From contig JALHMF010000009.1 in NCBI GenBank assembly GCA_022844205.1, positions 1-64,000 on the forward strand: a stretch of DNA of 64,000 bases, written 5' to 3'. The notes beneath the pieces were generated by a model, which saw only the letters and a program-made list of their open reading frames with translations, did no database searches and was not told the DNA's origin. This DNA is from Xanthobacteraceae bacterium (GTDB taxonomy: Bacteria > Pseudomonadota > Alphaproteobacteria > Rhizobiales > Xanthobacteraceae). A program made the position numbers and the translations under genes. Each line of letters opens with the position of its first letter. Position 1 is the first letter of the stretch. Below are positions 4,746-46,708 of this stretch, in pieces.

Positions 4746-5045
4746 ATGCACATCGCCTATGTTTCCTTCGCGTTGATCGCAGGCATGATCGCGAGCTTCG
4801 TCCCCGCGCCGATGCAGGGCAGCCTCGCGGGGATACCTTTTCTAGCGATGCAGCAGCAGGTTAGCCCGGTCTCCGAGCGCAGCACGGCGACTGCCTTGGC
4901 GACCGCGCTTGAACGGGCTGCGGTTCAGGAGAACGAGCCGGAAGAAACCGGCTCGATCGGCAAGAGCCTCACTTGCGAGCAGATCCGCATCTTGGATGAG
5001 GTCGAATTAATCACCGACGACTCTTACTGCACCGAGCGCGGCTAG
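4746..5045 (+). CDS. Hypothetical small exported or membrane-anchored protein
   Basis: A 99-residue protein I do not recognise. It starts with a hydrophobic stretch (residues 3-20, YVSFALIAGMIASFVPAP) that could be a signal or anchor, followed by an acidic Glu-rich middle and two cysteines near the C-terminus (SLTCEQIR and SYCTERG). The stop overlaps the stop of the convergent TetR gene. Coding status rests on an intact frame and plausible composition. Confidence 0.55.
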   Translation: MHIAYVSFALIAGMIASFVPAPMQGSLAGIPFLAMQQQVSPVSERSTATALATALERAAVQENEPEETGSIGKSLTCEQIRILDEVELITDDSYCTERG

Positions 5046-5629
5046 GCCGTCCCGGACAGAAGCGCGGCCCTGGCCGCCGCGGCAATCACCGCATCGATCT
5101 CCGCGGGCGGCACCGCCTGCGGAAGAAACACCCGCACCGCTCCGTACGGAATGCCGATCAAGGCAACCGCCATCCGCTCCCGGCCCTTTGGGTCGGCGGG
5201 CAGCAGGCGTTTGGCCGCATCGGCGATGTTCTTTTGCAGGTCGCGGGTGAGGGCGCTCGCCCTGTTTTTCGTCTCTTCCGGTGCCTCGTCGAGAAAATCC
5301 TCGCGCCGGCTTGCGAGCAGCAGCACTGCGGCGGCGTGATCCTCCCGCGCGAAGCGTGGGGTCAGAAGGGCTGCTTCCACGGCCTCATCGAGCGATTTTG
5401 CCTGTTCCAGGCGGTTGAAAAATCCGGCGGCGAAGCGCTCGGCCGCCTTCACCCAGCAATCGGCGAGCAGGGCTGAGCGGGAAGGCACCCGGTGATAGAC
5501 CGAACCTACGGGGACACCGGCTTCCTTTGCGATAGCAGCGACACTCGCCCGGGCCGGACCATGACGGGCGGCCACGCGCATCGCGGCGTTGAGCAGGTCT
5601 TCGTCCGTAATGTGTGCCGGCCGGCCCAT
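5042..5629 (-). CDS. TetR/AcrR family transcriptional regulator
   Basis: A 195-residue TetR-family protein. The N-terminal DNA-binding domain is clear (ITDEDLLNAAMRVAARHGPA ... VAAIAKEAGVPVGSVYHRVP). The C-terminal domain is not assigned. It is convergent with the small gene at 4746. Its upstream region (5630-5740) is A/T-rich compared with the surroundings and contains a 14-bp perfect palindrome at 5724-5737. Target genes are unknown. Confidence 0.9.
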   Translation of the reverse strand: MGRPAHITDEDLLNAAMRVAARHGPARASVAAIAKEAGVPVGSVYHRVPSRSALLADCWVKAAERFAAGFFNRLEQAKSLDEAVEAALLTPRFAREDHAAAVLLLASRREDFLDEAPEETKNRASALTRDLQKNIADAAKRLLPADPKGRERMAVALIGIPYGAVRVFLPQAVPPAEIDAVIAAAARAALLSGTA

Positions 5630-5723
5630 GGAGCAATCCGAATCGCCTTTTGCATGGATTATAGACTGTTGATTCTAATTATGGGCCTAGTGCTTCCTGC
5701 GCCTCGGGGCATGGCCACGTAAT

Positions 5724-5737
5724 AGAATATATATTCT
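5724..5737. promoter_or_regulatory. A/T-rich perfect palindrome upstream of TetR gene
   Basis: AGAATATATATTCT is a perfect 14-bp palindrome in a locally A/T-rich stretch between the TetR gene and the 24-codon ORF. It may be a regulator binding site. There is no second copy or other support. Confidence 0.3.
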
Positions 5738-5777
5738 TTTATGGTTCCAGGCTGCCAAAATGTTCCTCGCCCCATTT

Positions 5778-5802
5778 GGAACGGGAAGGCTGGTCTCGCG
5801 TT
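5778..5802 (+). promoter_or_regulatory. Candidate sigma-EcfG promoter
   Basis: GGAAC (5778-5782), 16 nt, CGTT (5799-5802): an exact match to the published sigma-EcfG consensus GGAAC-N16/17-CGTT. The -10 element lies 40 nt before the 24-codon ORF at 5843. The same motif and spacer occur at phyR and nepR in this window. Confidence 0.7.
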
Positions 5803-5842
5803 AGTCCGGAAATCGCTCGAGCAATCACGCCAGGAGGCAAGA

Positions 5843-5917
5843 ATGCTCAGCCCCTTCTGCCTAACTTTGACGATCGTTGTTGGATTTGCGCTCGGCGTTT
5901 TCCTGCCCGTGATCTAG
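5843..5917 (+). CDS. 24-residue hydrophobic small protein, probable stress-induced
   Basis: An ATG preceded by a strong AGGAGG ribosome-binding site (5832-5837) opens 24 codons. The product starts MLSPFCLTLTIVVGFALG and is one single hydrophobic segment with no charged residue, typical of a one-pass membrane microprotein. It has its own sigma-EcfG-type promoter (5778-5802) and its own strong terminator (5980-6018), so it would make a monocistronic RNA of about 200 nt. I do not recognise a family. The RNA could alternatively act as a small RNA. Confidence 0.6.
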   Translation: MLSPFCLTLTIVVGFALGVFLPVI

Positions 5918-5979
5918 GAGCCGAGTCTGAAAAGCTGCTGACGGCACTCCCCATCCCCCCGCTGCCGCAGTGGCGAAGT

Positions 5980-6018
5980 GGCGTCCCGAGCCGACCCCGA
6001 CTCGGGACGCCTTTTTTT
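5980..6018 (+). terminator. Rho-independent terminator
   Basis: GGCGTCCCGAG (5980-5990) and CTCGGGACGCC (6001-6011) form a perfect 11-bp stem, followed by seven T residues. It closes the transcript of the 24-codon ORF before thyA. Confidence 0.9.
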
Positions 6019-6105
6019 GTGCGCCATTTCCCCGGCTCAATTTTCATCCATTGGCTTCGTCCGGTCTCGCGCATAGCGTGACCCGATAAAGGACGAGTCG
6101 AGCGG

Positions 6106-6900
6106 ATGCGCCAATATCTCGACCTGATGCAAAGGATCATTTCGGAGGGCGCCCAGAAGGGCGACCGGACCGGAACCGGCACGCTGTCTGTGTTCGGACA
6201 CCAGATGCGCTTCGATCTCGCCGAGGGATTTCCGCTCGTCACCACCAAGAAACTGCATCTGAAATCCATCGTACATGAACTGCTCTGGTTCCTGAACGGC
6301 GACACCAACATCCGGTACCTGAAGGACAACGGTGTCAGCATCTGGGACGAGTGGGCGGACGAGGACGGCAATCTGGGCCCGGTCTATGGCGCGCAATGGC
6401 GTTCCTGGCCGGCGGCGGACGGCGAGGCGGTGGACCAGATCGCGGAAGTAATCGCGGAGATCAAACACAATCCCGACTCGCGCCGCCTGATCGTGAGTGC
6501 GTGGAATCCGGCGGCGGTGAAGAAGATGGCGCTGCCGCCCTGTCATTGTCTTTTTCAGTTCTATGTCGCGGATGGAAAACTTTCTTGCCAGCTCTACCAG
6601 CGCTCGGCCGATGTCTTTCTCGGGGTGCCCTTCAACATCGCTTCCTATGCGCTGCTAACCCACATGGTGGCGCAGGTGACGGGATTCAAACCGGGCGAGT
6701 TCATCCATACGCTCGGCGACGCGCATCTCTATGCCAATCACATGGAACAGGCGCAGTTGCAGCTCTCGCGCGCGCCGCGCAAACTGCCGCGGCTTGTGCT
6801 GAATCCGGCGGTGAAGGACCTATTCGGCTTCCGCTACGAAGACGTGGTTTTTGAAGGATACGACCCGCACCCCGCGATCAAGGCGGCGGTCGCGGTATAA
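6106..6900 (+). CDS. thyA: Thymidylate synthase
   Basis: Converts dUMP to dTMP with methylenetetrahydrofolate in the cytoplasm. The 264-residue length is that of the classical ThyA family. The catalytic cysteine is C146 in [11 protein letters not shown]. The folate/nucleotide segments [17 protein letters not shown] and HLYANHMEQ are intact. It is followed after 22 nt by an exported protein gene. dfrA is not adjacent in this window. Confidence 0.98.
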
Positions 6901-27963: not shown

Positions 27964-28518
27964 CTAGCGATGCTTGGTGCCGCTCAGCACGGCACGCATT
28001 TCCTGATCCGAACCGACTTCGTTCACGTCCTCGATCTGCATCAGCTCGATCAGGCGATTGCGGGCGCGATTAACGCGGCTCTTCACGGTGCCGACGGCGC
28101 AGCCGGAAATCTTGGCGGCCTCTTCGTAGGAAAAGCCGGAGGCACCGACCAGAATGAGCGCTTCGCGCTGGTCCTCGGGAAGCTGCAACAGTGCCTTGCG
28201 CAATTCCTCGAATTCGAGCCGGCCGCCCTGTTCGGGCTGCGTGGTCAGCGTATCCGAATAGCGGCCATCGATGTCTTCGACCTCGCGGCGGCGCTTGCGG
28301 TATTCCGAACGGAACAAGTTACGCAGGATCGTGAACAGCCATGCCGGCATGTTGGTGCCCGGCTGAAAGGTGTGGATATTGGCGATGGCCTTGGCGAGCG
28401 TCTCCTGCACGAGATCGTCGGCACGATCGACGTTGCCGCTCAGCGAAATGGCGAAGGCACGCAGGTTCGGCACTGCCGCCAGAATCGCCGCCTTGGTTTC
28501 TCGATCGAGGCTGCTCAT
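27964..28518 (-). CDS. ecfG: General stress response sigma factor EcfG
   Basis: ECF sigma factor of the alphaproteobacterial general stress response. The 184 residues have sigma region 2 (LSGNVDRADDLVQETLAKAI ... FQPGTNMPAWLFTILRNLF) and region 4 (LPEDQREALILVGASGFSYE, then GCAVGTVKSRVNRAR). It lies 10 nt behind nepR on the same strand and is divergent from phyR, the standard locus. In this system NepR holds EcfG inactive until phosphorylated PhyR removes NepR. Confidence 0.96.
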   Translation of the reverse strand: MSSLDRETKAAILAAVPNLRAFAISLSGNVDRADDLVQETLAKAIANIHTFQPGTNMPAWLFTILRNLFRSEYRKRRREVEDIDGRYSDTLTTQPEQGGRLEFEELRKALLQLPEDQREALILVGASGFSYEEAAKISGCAVGTVKSRVNRARNRLIELMQIEDVNEVGSDQEMRAVLSGTKHR

Positions 28519-28528
28519 GCGGGGACCC

Positions 28529-28738
28529 TCAATCTTTCTTCTCGAAACGGCTCAGGATGTCTTCGAGATGGCTGGGCACCCCTTCCTTGACCACTTCGTC
28601 GTACATGGCACGCAGTTGATGGCCGATCTTGACCTGTACCTCACGGTCGAGCCGGCCGGACTTGCTTGCATCTGAAGGGTTCATTTTTGCGGTTCCCGGC
28701 TCCCCGGAAGACCCCGCCTCATCCAGCTTCTTTTTCAT
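28529..28738 (-). CDS. nepR: Anti-sigma factor NepR
   Basis: A 69-residue anti-sigma factor. The conserved helical core VQVKIGHQLRAMYDEVVKEG and PSHLEDILSRFEK is clear; the N-terminal 30 residues are disordered in character. It is cotranscribed with ecfG and has an exact GGAAC-N16-CGTT promoter upstream (28798-28822), so its own sigma factor probably drives it. Confidence 0.92.
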   Translation of the reverse strand: MKKKLDEAGSSGEPGTAKMNPSDASKSGRLDREVQVKIGHQLRAMYDEVVKEGVPSHLEDILSRFEKKD

Positions 28739-28797
28739 TTGGCCCTCGTTGCCCAGATCACCCCGAAATCACGGAATTGCCTTATAATTCAGGGAGA

Positions 28798-28822
28798 AAC
28801 GCTACCCTGTTAAATTGGTTCC
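28798..28822 (-). promoter_or_regulatory. Sigma-EcfG promoter of nepR-ecfG
   Basis: On the minus strand: GGAAC (28822-28818), 16 nt, CGTT (28801-28798), an exact consensus match. The -35 element lies 7 nt from the oppositely oriented -35 element of phyR. Confidence 0.88.
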
Positions 28823-28829
28823 ACCATAT

Positions 28830-28854
28830 GGAACTTATTTTTTGTGGCCGCGTT
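28830..28854 (+). promoter_or_regulatory. Sigma-EcfG promoter of phyR
   Basis: GGAAC (28830-28834), 16 nt, CGTT (28851-28854), 39 nt before the phyR start. It forms a back-to-back pair with the nepR-ecfG promoter. Confidence 0.88.
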
Positions 28855-28893
28855 ATGGTCCGTACGAAATTTTGATGGAACCGGAGGGGGTCA

Positions 28894-29688
28894 ATGTCGG
28901 TATCCGAGACTGTCGCTAAACATCTCCCATTTCTGCGCCGTTATGCGCGGGCCCTGACCGGTTCGCAGGATTCCGGCGATAAATACGTCACCGTAGTCCT
29001 TGAAGCGCTGCTCGAAGATCCGGGCCCGCTGCAGGAAGGGGACGGGCGAGTGGGCCTCTACAAGGCCTTTACGAAGGCGTGGAATTCGCTCGCCGTGAAC
29101 GGCCAGTCGGATCCTGCCTTCGCCAATCTCCCGGGCGAGAAGCGCCTGATCCAGATTACCGCCAAGCCTCGGCAGGCGTTCCTGCTGACCGCCCTTGAAG
29201 GCTTCTCCGAGAACGATGCAGCGTCGATTTTGGACGTGGACGTAGCGGGCGTGCGCAACCTTATCGACAAGGCGGGCCGCGAGCTTGCCGCCGACATTGC
29301 GACGGACGTTCTCATCATCGAGGACGAGCCGTTCATCGCGGCGGACCTCGAAGGCCTCGTGCAGAAGCTCGGCCACAACGTGCTGGGCATCGCGCGCACC
29401 CACAAGGAAGCCGTGTCGCTCGCGGGCAAGCATCGGCCGGGTCTGATCCTCGCCGACATCAAGCTCGCCGACGGAAGTTCAGGCCTCGACGCGGTGAACG
29501 AACTCCTGAAGACGTTCGAGGTGCCGGTGGTGTTCATCACCGCCTATCCCGAGCGCTTCCTCACCGGCGAACGCCCCGAACCTGCGTTCCTGATCCCGAA
29601 GCCGTTTCAGCCAGCGACCGTATCGGCGGTTATCAGCCAGGCGCTCTTCTTCGAGCGCTCGGCCAAGCCGCGGACGATGGCTTCGTAG
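28894..29688 (+). CDS. phyR: General stress response regulator PhyR
   Basis: Anti-anti-sigma response regulator. The 264 residues start with a sigma-like domain (about 1-125: LPFLRRYARALTGSQDSGDK ... FSENDAASILDVDVAGVRN) that mimics EcfG. A receiver domain follows (about 138-255) with E143-D144, phospho-acceptor D188 (ILADIKLAD), ITAYPERF and K236 (IPKPF). When phosphorylated it binds NepR. The GGAGGGGG ribosome-binding site is strong. It is divergent from nepR-ecfG. Confidence 0.97.
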   Translation: MSVSETVAKHLPFLRRYARALTGSQDSGDKYVTVVLEALLEDPGPLQEGDGRVGLYKAFTKAWNSLAVNGQSDPAFANLPGEKRLIQITAKPRQAFLLTALEGFSENDAASILDVDVAGVRNLIDKAGRELAADIATDVLIIEDEPFIAADLEGLVQKLGHNVLGIARTHKEAVSLAGKHRPGLILADIKLADGSSGLDAVNELLKTFEVPVVFITAYPERFLTGERPEPAFLIPKPFQPATVSAVISQALFFERSAKPRTMAS

Positions 29689-29701
29689 TTCCGCAAAAAA
29701 A

Positions 29702-29734
29702 GACGCCGCGGCTTTTTACCCGCGGCGTCTTCTG
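29702..29734. terminator. Bidirectional terminator between phyR and csbD
   Basis: GACGCCGCGG (29702-29711) pairs with CCGCGGCGTC (29720-29729). An A run lies just left of it (a T run on the minus strand) and TTCT on the right, so it serves both convergent genes. Confidence 0.88.
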
Positions 29735-29744
29735 AAGAACACGA

Positions 29745-29945
29745 TCAGTTGACCGAGTTCAGCCAGGTGTCGATCTGCTTTTCGGCGTCGTCTTTGGCGA
29801 TGCCGTAGTGCTTCTGAAGGCGTCCGGTGAGTTCCTCACGCTTGCCCTCGATTACGTCGAGGTCGTCGTTGGTGAGCTTGCCCCAATTCTGCTGGGCCTT
29901 GCCCTTGAACTCTTTCCAGTTGCCTTCAATGCGATCCCAATTCAT
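29745..29945 (-). CDS. CsbD family stress protein
   Basis: A 66-residue hydrophilic CsbD-like protein: NWDRIEGNWKEFKGKAQQNW, then GKLTNDDLDVIEGKREELTG. The family is typical of general-stress regulons; biochemical role unknown. The ATG at 29945 is preceded by GGAGG, and a TTG four codons upstream is rejected because it would overlap that site. A near-consensus sigma-EcfG promoter lies at 29994-30018. Confidence 0.93.
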   Translation of the reverse strand: MNWDRIEGNWKEFKGKAQQNWGKLTNDDLDVIEGKREELTGRLQKHYGIAKDDAEKQIDTWLNSVN

Positions 29946-29993
29946 GTGGACCTCCAATTTTCTTCCGGGTTATCGGGTTTCGACAAGTCAGAG

Positions 29994-30018
29994 AACGAAT
30001 CTCTGGCGGAAAAGTTGC
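29994..30018 (-). promoter_or_regulatory. Near-consensus sigma-EcfG promoter of csbD
   Basis: On the minus strand: GCAAC (30018-30014; consensus GGAAC), 16 nt, CGTT (29997-29994), 49 nt upstream of the csbD start. One mismatch. Confidence 0.6.
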
Positions 30019-30152
30019 AAGGTGCCGGTCGCGGGTGCTCCGTGCATAAAAAGGCCGCGACGGCAGGGCCCTTGCCGCAGCCTTGGTCATCAATCGGCTA
30101 AAATGCGGCAGGATGTTTAAGCGCATCGAAAGAACGGGAAGGAAGAAGGGCG

Positions 30153-32066
30153 ATGTTCACTGAATTTGCTGGCTGGCTGCGCGATGCGCTGAATTTCATG
30201 CCGCAAAGCCATTTTCAGTCATGGCGTCCGGACATGGTCACGCTGCACGCGGCCTCCGATCTGCTGATCGCGGCCAGCTATCTTGCGCTCTCGATCGGCA
30301 TGATCTGGTTGATGTTCCAGCGATCCGATATTCGGGGGGGCCATCGCCTGCTTGCGGGGCTGCTGATTTTCTTCTGCCTCACAGGTGCGATCAATCACGG
30401 CCTATCCGCGGCACTCTACTGGCATCCGATCTATGGCGTTCAGGGCATTGTGAAGTTCGTCACGGTGCTGATCGCGATCCTCACCATCTCGTTCACGTTA
30501 CCGCTGCTGCCGCGGCTTGCGCGTCTGCCGAGCCCGCGCCAGCTCGCCGAAGCCAACGAGAGCCTGCGCCGCGAGGTCGGCGCGCACCAGGCAACGCTGA
30601 CCGAACTCGGCGCGATCCAGCGCGAACTCGAGCAACGCGTTGCCGAGCGCACGCGGGAACTGAGCCAAGTGAAGGCGCGCTTCGAGACGGCACTGCGCGG
30701 GGCCAAGGTTTACGTGTTCTCGCAGGACCGCGATCTCCGCTACAACTGGGCCTACAATCCGCGCGGCGAGGATGTCGCCGCCTCGATCCTCGGCCAAACC
30801 GACAGCGAAATTGTCTCGTCGCCCGACCGCGAAATGATCATTGCGACGAAAATGCGCGTGCTCGGCAGCGGAACGCCGGAAGACGCCGAAGTCTCCTACA
30901 TGCTGCCCGAAGGCCGCGTGATCTTCGCGCTCCACATCGAGCCGACCCGCGGCGCGGACGGGGAAATCGACGGGATCATGTGCGCCGCGGTGGACATCAC
31001 GCGCCTGCGCACGCTGGAACGCGAGCAACGGCGCCTGATGGAGGAGTTGAGCAACACCCTCCAGCGCTACGAAATCGGCATGCAGGGTTCCAACGTGACG
31101 GTGTTCACGCAGGACCGCGAACTTCGCTACACCTCGATCAGCAAGCCGATGTTCGGCAAGACCGTGAACGAGATCGTCGGCCGCACGGACGAGGAAATGT
31201 TGCCGCCCGCGAACCGGCTGGCCATCGTCGGTTTCAAGCGGGAAGTGCTGAAAACCGGCCAGTCGCAAAAGCAGGAAGTAAAGGTGATCGAGCACGTCAA
31301 CGGCACGGAGATCGAGCGCTGGTATGATATTCACGTCGATGCGCTGCGGGATATTTCCGGGGCCATCGTCGGCCTCACGAGTTCCGCCGTGGACATTACC
31401 GACCGCAAGGGCGCGGAATCGCACCTGCGGCTTCTAATGCACGAACTCACGCACCGTTCCAAGAATCTGCTTGCCGTCATCCAGGCGATGGCGCACCAGA
31501 CCGGGCGGCAGGCCGGTTCCATCAACCGCTTCCTCGAACGCTTCGGCGAACGCCTGCAGGCGCTGGCGAAGTCCCACGATATTCTTGTGCAGGAAGACTG
31601 GCATGGTGCGTCACTGGTGGAACTCGTGCGCTCGCAGCTTGGCCATTATCTCGACCAGAGCGGCTCACAGATTTCGATCAAGGGGCCGCCGCTGCAACTG
31701 AAGCCCGAAGGCGCCCAAAGCCTCGGCCTTGCCCTGCACGAGCTTGCGACCAACGCCGCGAAATACGGGGCACTTTCCGTGCCCGCAGGCCGCGTCAGCA
31801 TCGATTGGAAACGCCGCCCGACCTCGCAGGGCGGCGGCCTTGAAATCGTGTGGCAGGAAAAGGGCGGGCCGGAAGTCGCCGCGCCGAAGGCCCGCGGCTT
31901 CGGCAGCCTCGTGATCGAGCGCAATCTTGCCCGTTCCATGGACGCCGAGGTGAACCTCGATTTCAACGCCGGCGGCGTGACCTGCCGGGTGCTGATCCCG
32001 GAGGAACACATCCTCTCCACCACGGCCGCACCCGAAAGATTGCGGATGCGGAATGTTGCGGGCTGA
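30153..32066 (+). CDS. HWE-type sensor histidine kinase, probable PhyR-pathway kinase
   Basis: A 637-residue membrane kinase. The N-terminus has three hydrophobic helices (about 32-55, 64-82, 92-118) with an ethylene-receptor-like layout, and a coiled linker follows (about 125-172). Two PAS-like domains each open with a similar phrase (VYVFSQDRDLRYNWAYNP near 185 and VTVFTQDRELRYTSISKP near 318). The kinase core has HELTHRSKNLLAVIQAMAHQ with phospho-acceptor H434, then the ATPase domain LGLALHELATNAAKYGALSV. Kinases of the HWE/HisKA2 group feed PhyR, and it sits next to phyR and csbD, so a PhyK role is likely but inferred. Confidence 0.88.
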   Translation: MFTEFAGWLRDALNFMPQSHFQSWRPDMVTLHAASDLLIAASYLALSIGMIWLMFQRSDIRGGHRLLAGLLIFFCLTGAINHGLSAALYWHPIYGVQGIVKFVTVLIAILTISFTLPLLPRLARLPSPRQLAEANESLRREVGAHQATLTELGAIQRELEQRVAERTRELSQVKARFETALRGAKVYVFSQDRDLRYNWAYNPRGEDVAASILGQTDSEIVSSPDREMIIATKMRVLGSGTPEDAEVSYMLPEGRVIFALHIEPTRGADGEIDGIMCAAVDITRLRTLEREQRRLMEELSNTLQRYEIGMQGSNVTVFTQDRELRYTSISKPMFGKTVNEIVGRTDEEMLPPANRLAIVGFKREVLKTGQSQKQEVKVIEHVNGTEIERWYDIHVDALRDISGAIVGLTSSAVDITDRKGAESHLRLLMHELTHRSKNLLAVIQAMAHQTGRQAGSINRFLERFGERLQALAKSHDILVQEDWHGASLVELVRSQLGHYLDQSGSQISIKGPPLQLKPEGAQSLGLALHELATNAAKYGALSVPAGRVSIDWKRRPTSQGGGLEIVWQEKGGPEVAAPKARGFGSLVIERNLARSMDAEVNLDFNAGGVTCRVLIPEEHILSTTAAPERLRMRNVAG

Positions 32067-46191: not shown

Positions 46192-46219
46192 GGCCGGGTT
46201 GGAGCCAACCAACCCGGCC
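46192..46219 (+). promoter_or_regulatory. Intercistronic hairpin between tctC- and tctB-type genes
   Basis: GGCCGGGTTGG (46192-46202) pairs perfectly with CCAACCCGGCC (46209-46219), an 11-bp stem without a T run, 20 nt after the binding protein stop. It parallels the hairpin in the TRAP operon. Confidence 0.65.
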
Positions 46220-46243
46220 GGTGTTGCGTAGGGGGAGGGGCGT

Positions 46244-46708
46244 ATGCCGGGCTTCATCAAGAACCCGAAAGATTTCTTCGCGGGGCTTCTGTTTCTCGTG
46301 ATCGTGGCTATCTTCGGCTGGGGCTTGCGCGAACTTCCGATCGGCACCGCGTTCCGCATGGGCCCGGGTTATTTCCCGATGGTCCTGCTCATCATTCTGA
46401 CCGGGCTCGGCGTCGCGATCCTCGTGAATGGACTGCGCACGTCCGGCGAGCCGATCGGAATGATCCCCTGGCGCGGCCTCGCGCTGATTACGTTTCCCAT
46501 CATCTTTTTCGGGGCGACACTGAAAGGACTGGGCCTTGTCGCCTCCCTCGGCATCAGCGTGTTCGCCACCACGCTTGCGAGCCGTGAGTGGAACATCCTG
46601 TATGCGGTGGCGACGACGGTCGTGCTGGTGGTCGCAAGCTGGCTGATTTTCATCAAAGGTCTGGGCCTGCCGATTTCGCTGCGCGGCCCCTGGATCGGCG
46701 GATACTGA
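46244..46708 (+). CDS. Tripartite tricarboxylate transporter small membrane subunit (TctB)
   Basis: A 154-residue membrane protein with four hydrophobic segments, first DFFAGLLFLVIVAIFGWGL, followed by AFRMGPGYFPMVLLIILTGL, the typical TctB MGPGYFP motif. It lies 10 nt upstream of the tctA-type gene. Confidence 0.92.
   Translation: MPGFIKNPKDFFAGLLFLVIVAIFGWGLRELPIGTAFRMGPGYFPMVLLIILTGLGVAILVNGLRTSGEPIGMIPWRGLALITFPIIFFGATLKGLGLVASLGISVFATTLASREWNILYAVATTVVLVVASWLIFIKGLGLPISLRGPWIGGY

Follow-up and report, generated by a model that had tools for sequence, protein, structure and literature searches.

Little is known so far, to our knowledge, of the effectors of the general stress response in Alphaproteobacteria. 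Under general stress, PhyR frees EcfG from NepR. Frames of 20 to 30 codons fall under usual gene-calling limits. Among the closest described systems, GsrN of Caulobacter is a sigma-T/EcfG small RNA (sRNA) whose C-rich loop pairs with G-rich mRNA, for example that of katG, as set out in the accessible part of the report (PMC5869019). Pos19 of Rhodobacter is an RpoE coding sRNA for which translation and Hfq binding were shown (PMC5036791), and the ccaF1-CcsR1-4 unit, or CIN1, joins a 71-amino-acid (aa) DUF1127 RNA-binding protein to four sRNAs under an RpoHI/HII promoter (PMC10253847), both according to excerpts of the papers. In S. meliloti, excerpts of another study give 33% of 54 nonannotated translated small open reading frames (sORFs) as lying on annotated sRNAs (PMC10117765), and dual coding and RNA units are plausible because sORFs overlap sRNAs there.

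The locus described here lies in a 64-kb stretch of DNA, the whole of which was analyzed and is called the window. The original prediction was of a free-standing 24-codon microprotein gene with its own sigma-EcfG promoter and terminator, and every part that it named was confirmed in the sequence, in order and on the + strand: an exact match to the predicted sigma-EcfG promoter GGAAC-N16-CGTT (5778 to 5802, with GGAAC at 5778 to 5782, 16 nt, and CGTT at 5799 to 5802); a Shine-Dalgarno (SD) sequence, AGGAGG (5832 to 5837), 5 nt ahead of the ATG; the frame MLSPFCLTLTIVVGFALGVFLPVI (5843 to 5914, with TAG at 5915 to 5917); and an intrinsic terminator (5980 to 6018) made of an 11-bp stem (GGCGTCCCGAG at 5980 to 5990 and CTCGGGACGCC at 6001 to 6011), a 10-nt loop, and T7 at 6012 to 6018. 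What the prediction missed is a C-rich segment (5934 to 5974) between the stop codon and the terminator, which is conserved in three genomes and in the window is predicted to fold as a hairpin with the 16-nt loop CUCCCCAUCCCCCCGC (5947 to 5962). The transcript presumably starts at about 5807 to 5811, by a rule of thumb on distance from a sigma-EcfG promoter. A simple terminator scan, which accepts loops of up to 8 nt, reported none for the unit, where the loop is 10 nt. Upstream stands the divergent gene tetR (5042 to 5629; Pfam TetR_N), and downstream, separated from the end of the terminator by 87 nt, stands thyA (6106 to 6900; Pfam E value = 2.5e-129).

The genus was sampled by five genomes, including that of the window (G000). 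A 561-bp DNA query matched in three of the five, the same three that hold thyA; the other two genomes are 84% and 68% complete. All three genomes with thyA (the other two being G001 and G002) share the order of tetR, promoter, microframe, C-rich segment, terminator, and thyA, and the neighboring TetR proteins are identical to that of the window at 126/190 and 124/192 positions. Conservation of the promoter is exact in one congener and falls one base short in the other: the G001 unit has GGAAC-N16-CGTT, the SD sequence GAGG, and the peptide MISSPYVATALALGFVLGVFLI, and the G002 unit has GCAAC-N16-CGTT, GGAGG, and MHVSTYILMTAVVGMVLGAFLPLV. From promoter start to ATG, the distances are 65, 65, and 69 nt in the window, G001, and G002, respectively. 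With gaps scored as differences, pairwise DNA identity among the three units is 20 to 22% upstream, 39 to 50% in the 5′ untranslated region, 45 to 56% in the frame, 78 to 84% in the C-rich segment, 64 to 86% in the terminator, and 12 to 31% beyond it; thyA coding DNA is 78% (G001) and 76% (G002) identical to that of the window. The best-conserved DNA is therefore the segment after the stop codon, at about the level of thyA, and not the frame. In the spacer between tetR and the microgene, as a neighbor outside the unit, lies an inverted repeat, AGAATATATATTCT (5724 to 5737), which is probably a TetR operator; the 64-kb window contains AGAA-N6-TTCT a single time, and each searched stretch of the syntenic spacer in G001 and in G002 likewise has one copy.

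The general-stress assignment made in the original prediction fits the rest of the window: ecfG, nepR, and phyR share both the window and the promoter motif with the microgene. These are nepR (28529 to 28738, − strand; Pfam NepR, 2.8e-11), phyR (28894 to 29688, + strand; PhyR domains, 1.5e-22 and 2.8e-19), and, adjoining nepR, an ECF-type sigma gene with sigma-70 domains (27964 to 28518, − strand), which we read as ecfG given its position beside nepR. GGAAC-N16-CGTT precedes both nepR-ecfG and phyR, with an exact match at phyR; phyR was not found in the G002 assembly, which is 80% complete. The same general stress locus (27964 to 32066) contains a CsbD gene (29745 to 29957, − strand) and, after phyR, a gene for an HWE histidine kinase with an ETR1-like N-terminal domain. 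The sigma-EcfG1 motif of R. etli is identical, with a spacer of exactly 16 nt, and the start of ReC64, an R. etli noncoding RNA with the EcfG1 motif, was mapped by 5′ rapid amplification of cDNA ends, as given in part of that report (PMC3892343). We consider it very probable that a real sigma-EcfG transcript arises at the microgene.

Taken by itself, the bare promoter motif with spacers of 15 to 17 nt is not enriched in the genome of the window (89 matches versus 123 for the reversed control). Spacers of 15, 16, and 17 nt numbered 21, 46, and 22 among the 89 matches in a hand count, an excess of N16 (binomial P value = 2.7e-4). The composite of promoter, GGAGG, and ATG in that order, by contrast, is highly specific and well beyond chance, as it matched in 87 of 100 family genomes, versus one control match in all 100; the genome of the window has four such matches (control, 0), including the microgene site and phyR (28830 to 28896). 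This strict composite finds the microgene unit in its own genome only, the SD sequence being GAGG in G001 and the promoter GCAAC in G002, and we regard the layout conserved in G001 and G002 as stronger evidence than the composite-motif count. For the N16 sites of the genome of the window, of which 45 of 46 could be parsed, GGAGG-ATG lies downstream in 10 of 45, and 3 of those 10 open frames of 24, 27, and 34 residues that include a hydrophobic stretch. Several other N16 sites precede genes that, by eye and with no profile, look usual for the general stress response (PRC-barrel, glycine-zipper, and YciE-like), and several are located within long open frames, where the match may be fortuitous.

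Conservation of the peptide beside thyA, which would be expected of the predicted microprotein, was borne out: the frame and the SD sequence are kept in both other thyA-bearing congeners, and the peptides can be aligned beyond what composition gives, with global alignment scores equaled by 5, 0, and 5 of 20,000 composition-preserving shuffles. The three frames have 22 to 24 codons and are uncharged and hydrophobic; MLSPFCLTLTIVVGFALGVFLPVI, with 24 aa and without D, E, K, or R, has a mean hydropathy of 2.22, from which one transmembrane helix is likely. M1, G14, L17, G18, F20, and L21 are invariant in the three peptides, and from the conserved glycine pair we infer that G14xxxG18 serves helix packing. 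Differences at codon positions 1/2/3 number 9/5/9, 11/8/15, and 11/7/15 in the three pairs, so that second positions, which set hydrophobicity, are the least changed. A single-sequence peptide search was weak (E value = 0.26 for G002; no match for G001), and the microgene peptides had no match above cutoff in Pfam or NCBIfam, with none at all from NCBIfam and only weak ones from Pfam, such as DUF883_C for the G001 peptide (E value = 0.14). By eye, the microprotein resembles the tails of DUF883-type stress proteins. A longer TTG frame over the same region (5776 to 6081; 101 aa) was rejected, as its translation is by eye unconserved in G001 and G002, with a stop in G001. With good confidence, these patterns suggest that the 24-codon frame is selected and translated.

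The original prediction had also allowed that the RNA itself could be regulatory, an idea somewhat strengthened by the finding that no other part of the unit is as well conserved as the segment after the stop codon. Folded in isolation, the C-rich segments form hairpins in all three genomes (z = −2.6, −2.2, and −3.1), with two extra pairs inside the loop in G001 and G002. For the full predicted transcripts, folding gives the hairpin in G000 (loop 94% unpaired), where it is separate from the terminator hairpin, and in G001 (79%) but gives none in G002, with pair probabilities of 0. There, the post-stop sequence GGGAGGAG (L011, minus strand), upstream of the loop, pairs with CUCCCC of the C-rich segment, and the C-rich sequence may be sequestered in G002. 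In folds that include 170 nt after the stop codon, past the terminator, the hairpin is lost in both G001 and G002; together with its loss in the G002 transcript, this speaks against an exposed loop as a conserved feature. With lengths of 16, 17, and 19 nt, the loops do not preserve a reading frame, which is what noncoding RNA would be expected to show. Two-sided changes preserve no pair of the C-rich hairpin (there are one GC-to-GU change and one broken pair), so that it is the sequence that is conserved; in the terminator stem, two pairs are altered on both sides yet kept among the three sequences. A small target scan over 45 open reading frame (ORF) starts of the window gave no convincing general stress target. 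Of these starts, that of a TctB-family gene (46244) gave the most stable predicted duplex with the C-rich loop, at −23.3 kcal/mol, and the leader of this gene (46204 to 46258) has GUAGGGGGAGGGGCG ahead of the ATG; phyR was rejected as a target, ranking 8th of the 45 mechanical ORF starts and having a shorter G-run in G003 and G001. Since the G002 fold failure lowers the odds, we hold a trans-acting RNA function to be somewhat short of an even prospect.

Within the genomes searched, the unit appears to be found in this genus only. A profile of the three peptides gave no convincing match in any other of 296 family genomes among the matches listed, where the next best (E value = 0.006) lies inside a 471-aa frame; matches without a fetched locus were assessed on frame length alone. 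A covariance model built from the three genus genomes matched strongly only in those three among 198 family genomes (next E value = 7e-5) and only in the genome of the window among the 297 genomes of the order (next E value = 4e-5). Scanned on both strands, none of 27 family loci (L174 to L200) and none of 7 order loci (L271 to L277) with weak RNA matches had a promoter plus microframe, and promoter-like sites alone occurred at L175, L183, L186, L192, L196, and L277. A weak RNA match upstream of thyA in Pseudolabrys (L030) was rejected, being a terminator that overlaps the end of a different gene. Apart from the genus loci, a both-strand scan of weak peptide-profile loci (L014 to L021 and L105 to L133) yielded only L129 and L124; L124 forms the terminal part of a longer frame, presumably like a DUF883-type glycine-zipper tail, and on the minus strand of L129, from 1560, begins a separate sigma-EcfG-linked 41-aa frame, MWISLFSVALAIALGFGLGAVKLESSG..., with a GFxxG motif. 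No comparable unit was seen in the thyA neighborhoods outside the genus (80 loci and a further 28 loci of the family scanned, some of which start near thyA); L077 matched a loose motif but had no promoter. A repeat element was rejected on one DNA match in the genome of the window and one strong RNA-model match there, with a weak one next (E value = 0.027), and plasmid or phage cargo was rejected on the lack of any match in a plasmid search and on a viral-contig scan with the three-peptide profile (42 pattern matches, 0 confirmed). Rfam gave two matches between 4500 and 7000, both far below the gathering score.

Other microproteins are linked to sigma-EcfG promoters. Four of 30 composite-motif loci examined start frames of 22 to 27 hydrophobic residues, and three of those four, together with a copy in the genome of the window, form a family with the consensus MGRGLLLWLIGIPxPIILLxWLF (GIPxPI), whose members are mostly 22 to 27 aa with one hydrophobic helix. 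The copy in the genome of the window lies on contig C1 (G000:C1:282757-282837, + strand; L006/L288), with relatives at L278 to L307 and L313 to L340. At E values up to 0.01, a GIPxPI profile matched in 132 of 149 family genomes and 41 of 47 genera. Among the best 30 family loci, the frame is present in 30, an exact promoter in 22, and an exact or loose one in 26 at −50 to −67, compared with 2 exact and 7 exact or loose matches in 1,140 control windows. In the class as a whole, the profile matched 54 of 385 genomes at E values up to 0.001, and the 27 of 28 loci that could be parsed had 5 exact and 13 exact or loose promoters; these lower counts suggest that the promoter link weakens with distance. 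The GIPxPI peptide has no Pfam or NCBIfam model. It is like the microgene peptide in its small size, single hydrophobic helix, and sigma-EcfG promoter but differs in its WLxGxPxPII motif, absent from the window peptide, and in being class-wide, whereas the microgene is genus limited. Two further sigma-EcfG-linked hydrophobic frames are a 34-aa frame, MVEMIAFFGVAALLVAIGFAAGPMVARHSGPTHQ, with a GFxxG motif (L253; G000:C4, about 194278 to 194382, − strand) and a 27-aa frame, MTIVGPLSVVAAYASLILVGAIVLGMF (L205, minus strand). Overall, the sigma-EcfG promoter used as a search anchor reveals recurrent, conserved frames of 20 to 30 codons at exact loci. Neither the unit nor the GIPxPI peptide was met in the open-access PMC literature, surveyed in part, and the accessible parts of PMC5082802 and PMC4842269 contain nothing on such peptides.

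We propose, at about even chances, that the microgene yields a stress transcript with two outputs, a sigma-EcfG coding RNA for a GxxxG microprotein and a possible C-rich riboregulator. Under general stress, PhyR would release EcfG from NepR, and the microgene would then be transcribed by EcfG into a coding RNA of about 210 nt, monocistronic and dependent on sigma-EcfG. Translation of this short mRNA would give a 24-residue single-pass inner-membrane microprotein whose G14xxxG18 face may pack on itself or on a partner membrane protein. Toward its 3′ end the transcript would carry the C-rich segment, predicted as a hairpin loop in two of the genomes and not in the third, followed by the intrinsic terminator; this 3′ part, intact or processed, would probably be a small regulatory RNA that base-pairs with G-rich ribosome-binding regions much as GsrN does with katG. 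We infer this RNA role from the conserved segment. A bolder form, in which one 210-nt RNA delivers a GxxxG membrane effector and a GsrN-like translation regulator and in which single-helix microproteins, the class-wide GIPxPI peptides included, would be a standard unannotated arm of the general stress response in Alphaproteobacteria, is offered tentatively.

How much of the unit is RNA and how much is peptide can be read otherwise. The locus might be a microprotein gene only, its conserved 3′ segment being an element of mRNA stability, translation tuning, or termination. Other sigma-EcfG microprotein genes exist in the same genome and family, six other microgene 3′ ends are by eye without a C-rich hairpin, and the G002 C-rich stretch is predicted to be paired within its transcript; set against this, the segment including its loop comes close to thyA coding DNA in conservation and far exceeds the frame, which is more than a stability element seems to need, and we judge this reading rather unlikely. 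The reverse case, a noncoding GsrN-like sRNA whose 24-codon frame is fortuitous, draws on an RNA part conserved better than the frame and on sigma-EcfG sRNAs described in the accessible parts of PMC5869019 and, for ReC64, PMC3892343. It appears improbable when start codon, SD sequence, length, hydrophobicity, and GxxxG are kept in three genomes at 45 to 56% nucleotide identity and peptide similarity exceeds that of shuffles.

Small size, hydrophobicity, a stress promoter, and a structured 3′ untranslated region would also suit a TisB-like type I toxin, that is, a hydrophobic peptide depolarizing the membrane under stress and held by an antisense RNA. TisB-type peptides carry charges, whereas D, E, K, and R are all absent from this one. 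A promoter search of both strands of 5600 to 6200, limited to the sigma-70-like type, found none, the genome of the window holds one match, and a plasmid search, of low sensitivity for a 24-residue query, gave no match; a toxin is thus very improbable. Least credible is a leader peptide or attenuator of thyA transcribed from the stress promoter, to which the conserved order and the spacing of 87 nt between terminator end and thyA in the window might point: inspection by eye showed neither antiterminator pairing nor a run of regulatory codons, the conserved peptide is a hydrophobic helix, and the two hairpins are separate in the window fold. Under the two-output proposal, by comparison with all of these, the locus may be a two-in-one stress gene overlooked by annotation, with peptide and RNA both kept by selection, and if the 3′ part acts in trans, it would be a compact coding sRNA under sigma-EcfG.

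Set beside the described systems, the microgene shares with GsrN a sigma-EcfG-type promoter and, in two of three predicted transcripts, a cytosine-rich loop. They differ in the place of that element: the C loop stands at the 5′ end of GsrN, according to the accessible part of its description, whereas the C-rich part of the microgene stands 3′ of a conserved frame and not in the 5′ part of the transcript. Pos19, as far as excerpts of its report describe it, is similarly a stress-sigma transcript of about 210 to 220 nt with a short frame and possible riboregulation, but it has a 150-nt frame, belongs to the RpoE regulon, and has had translation and Hfq binding shown, whereas the microgene frame is a prediction from sequence. 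A further parallel in layout is ccaF1-CcsR, where, again from excerpts, a stress-sigma promoter, a small protein, sRNAs, and one terminator are combined in an order like that predicted here; in place of a 71-aa protein and four sRNAs, the microgene would encode a 24-aa membrane peptide followed by one C-rich segment.
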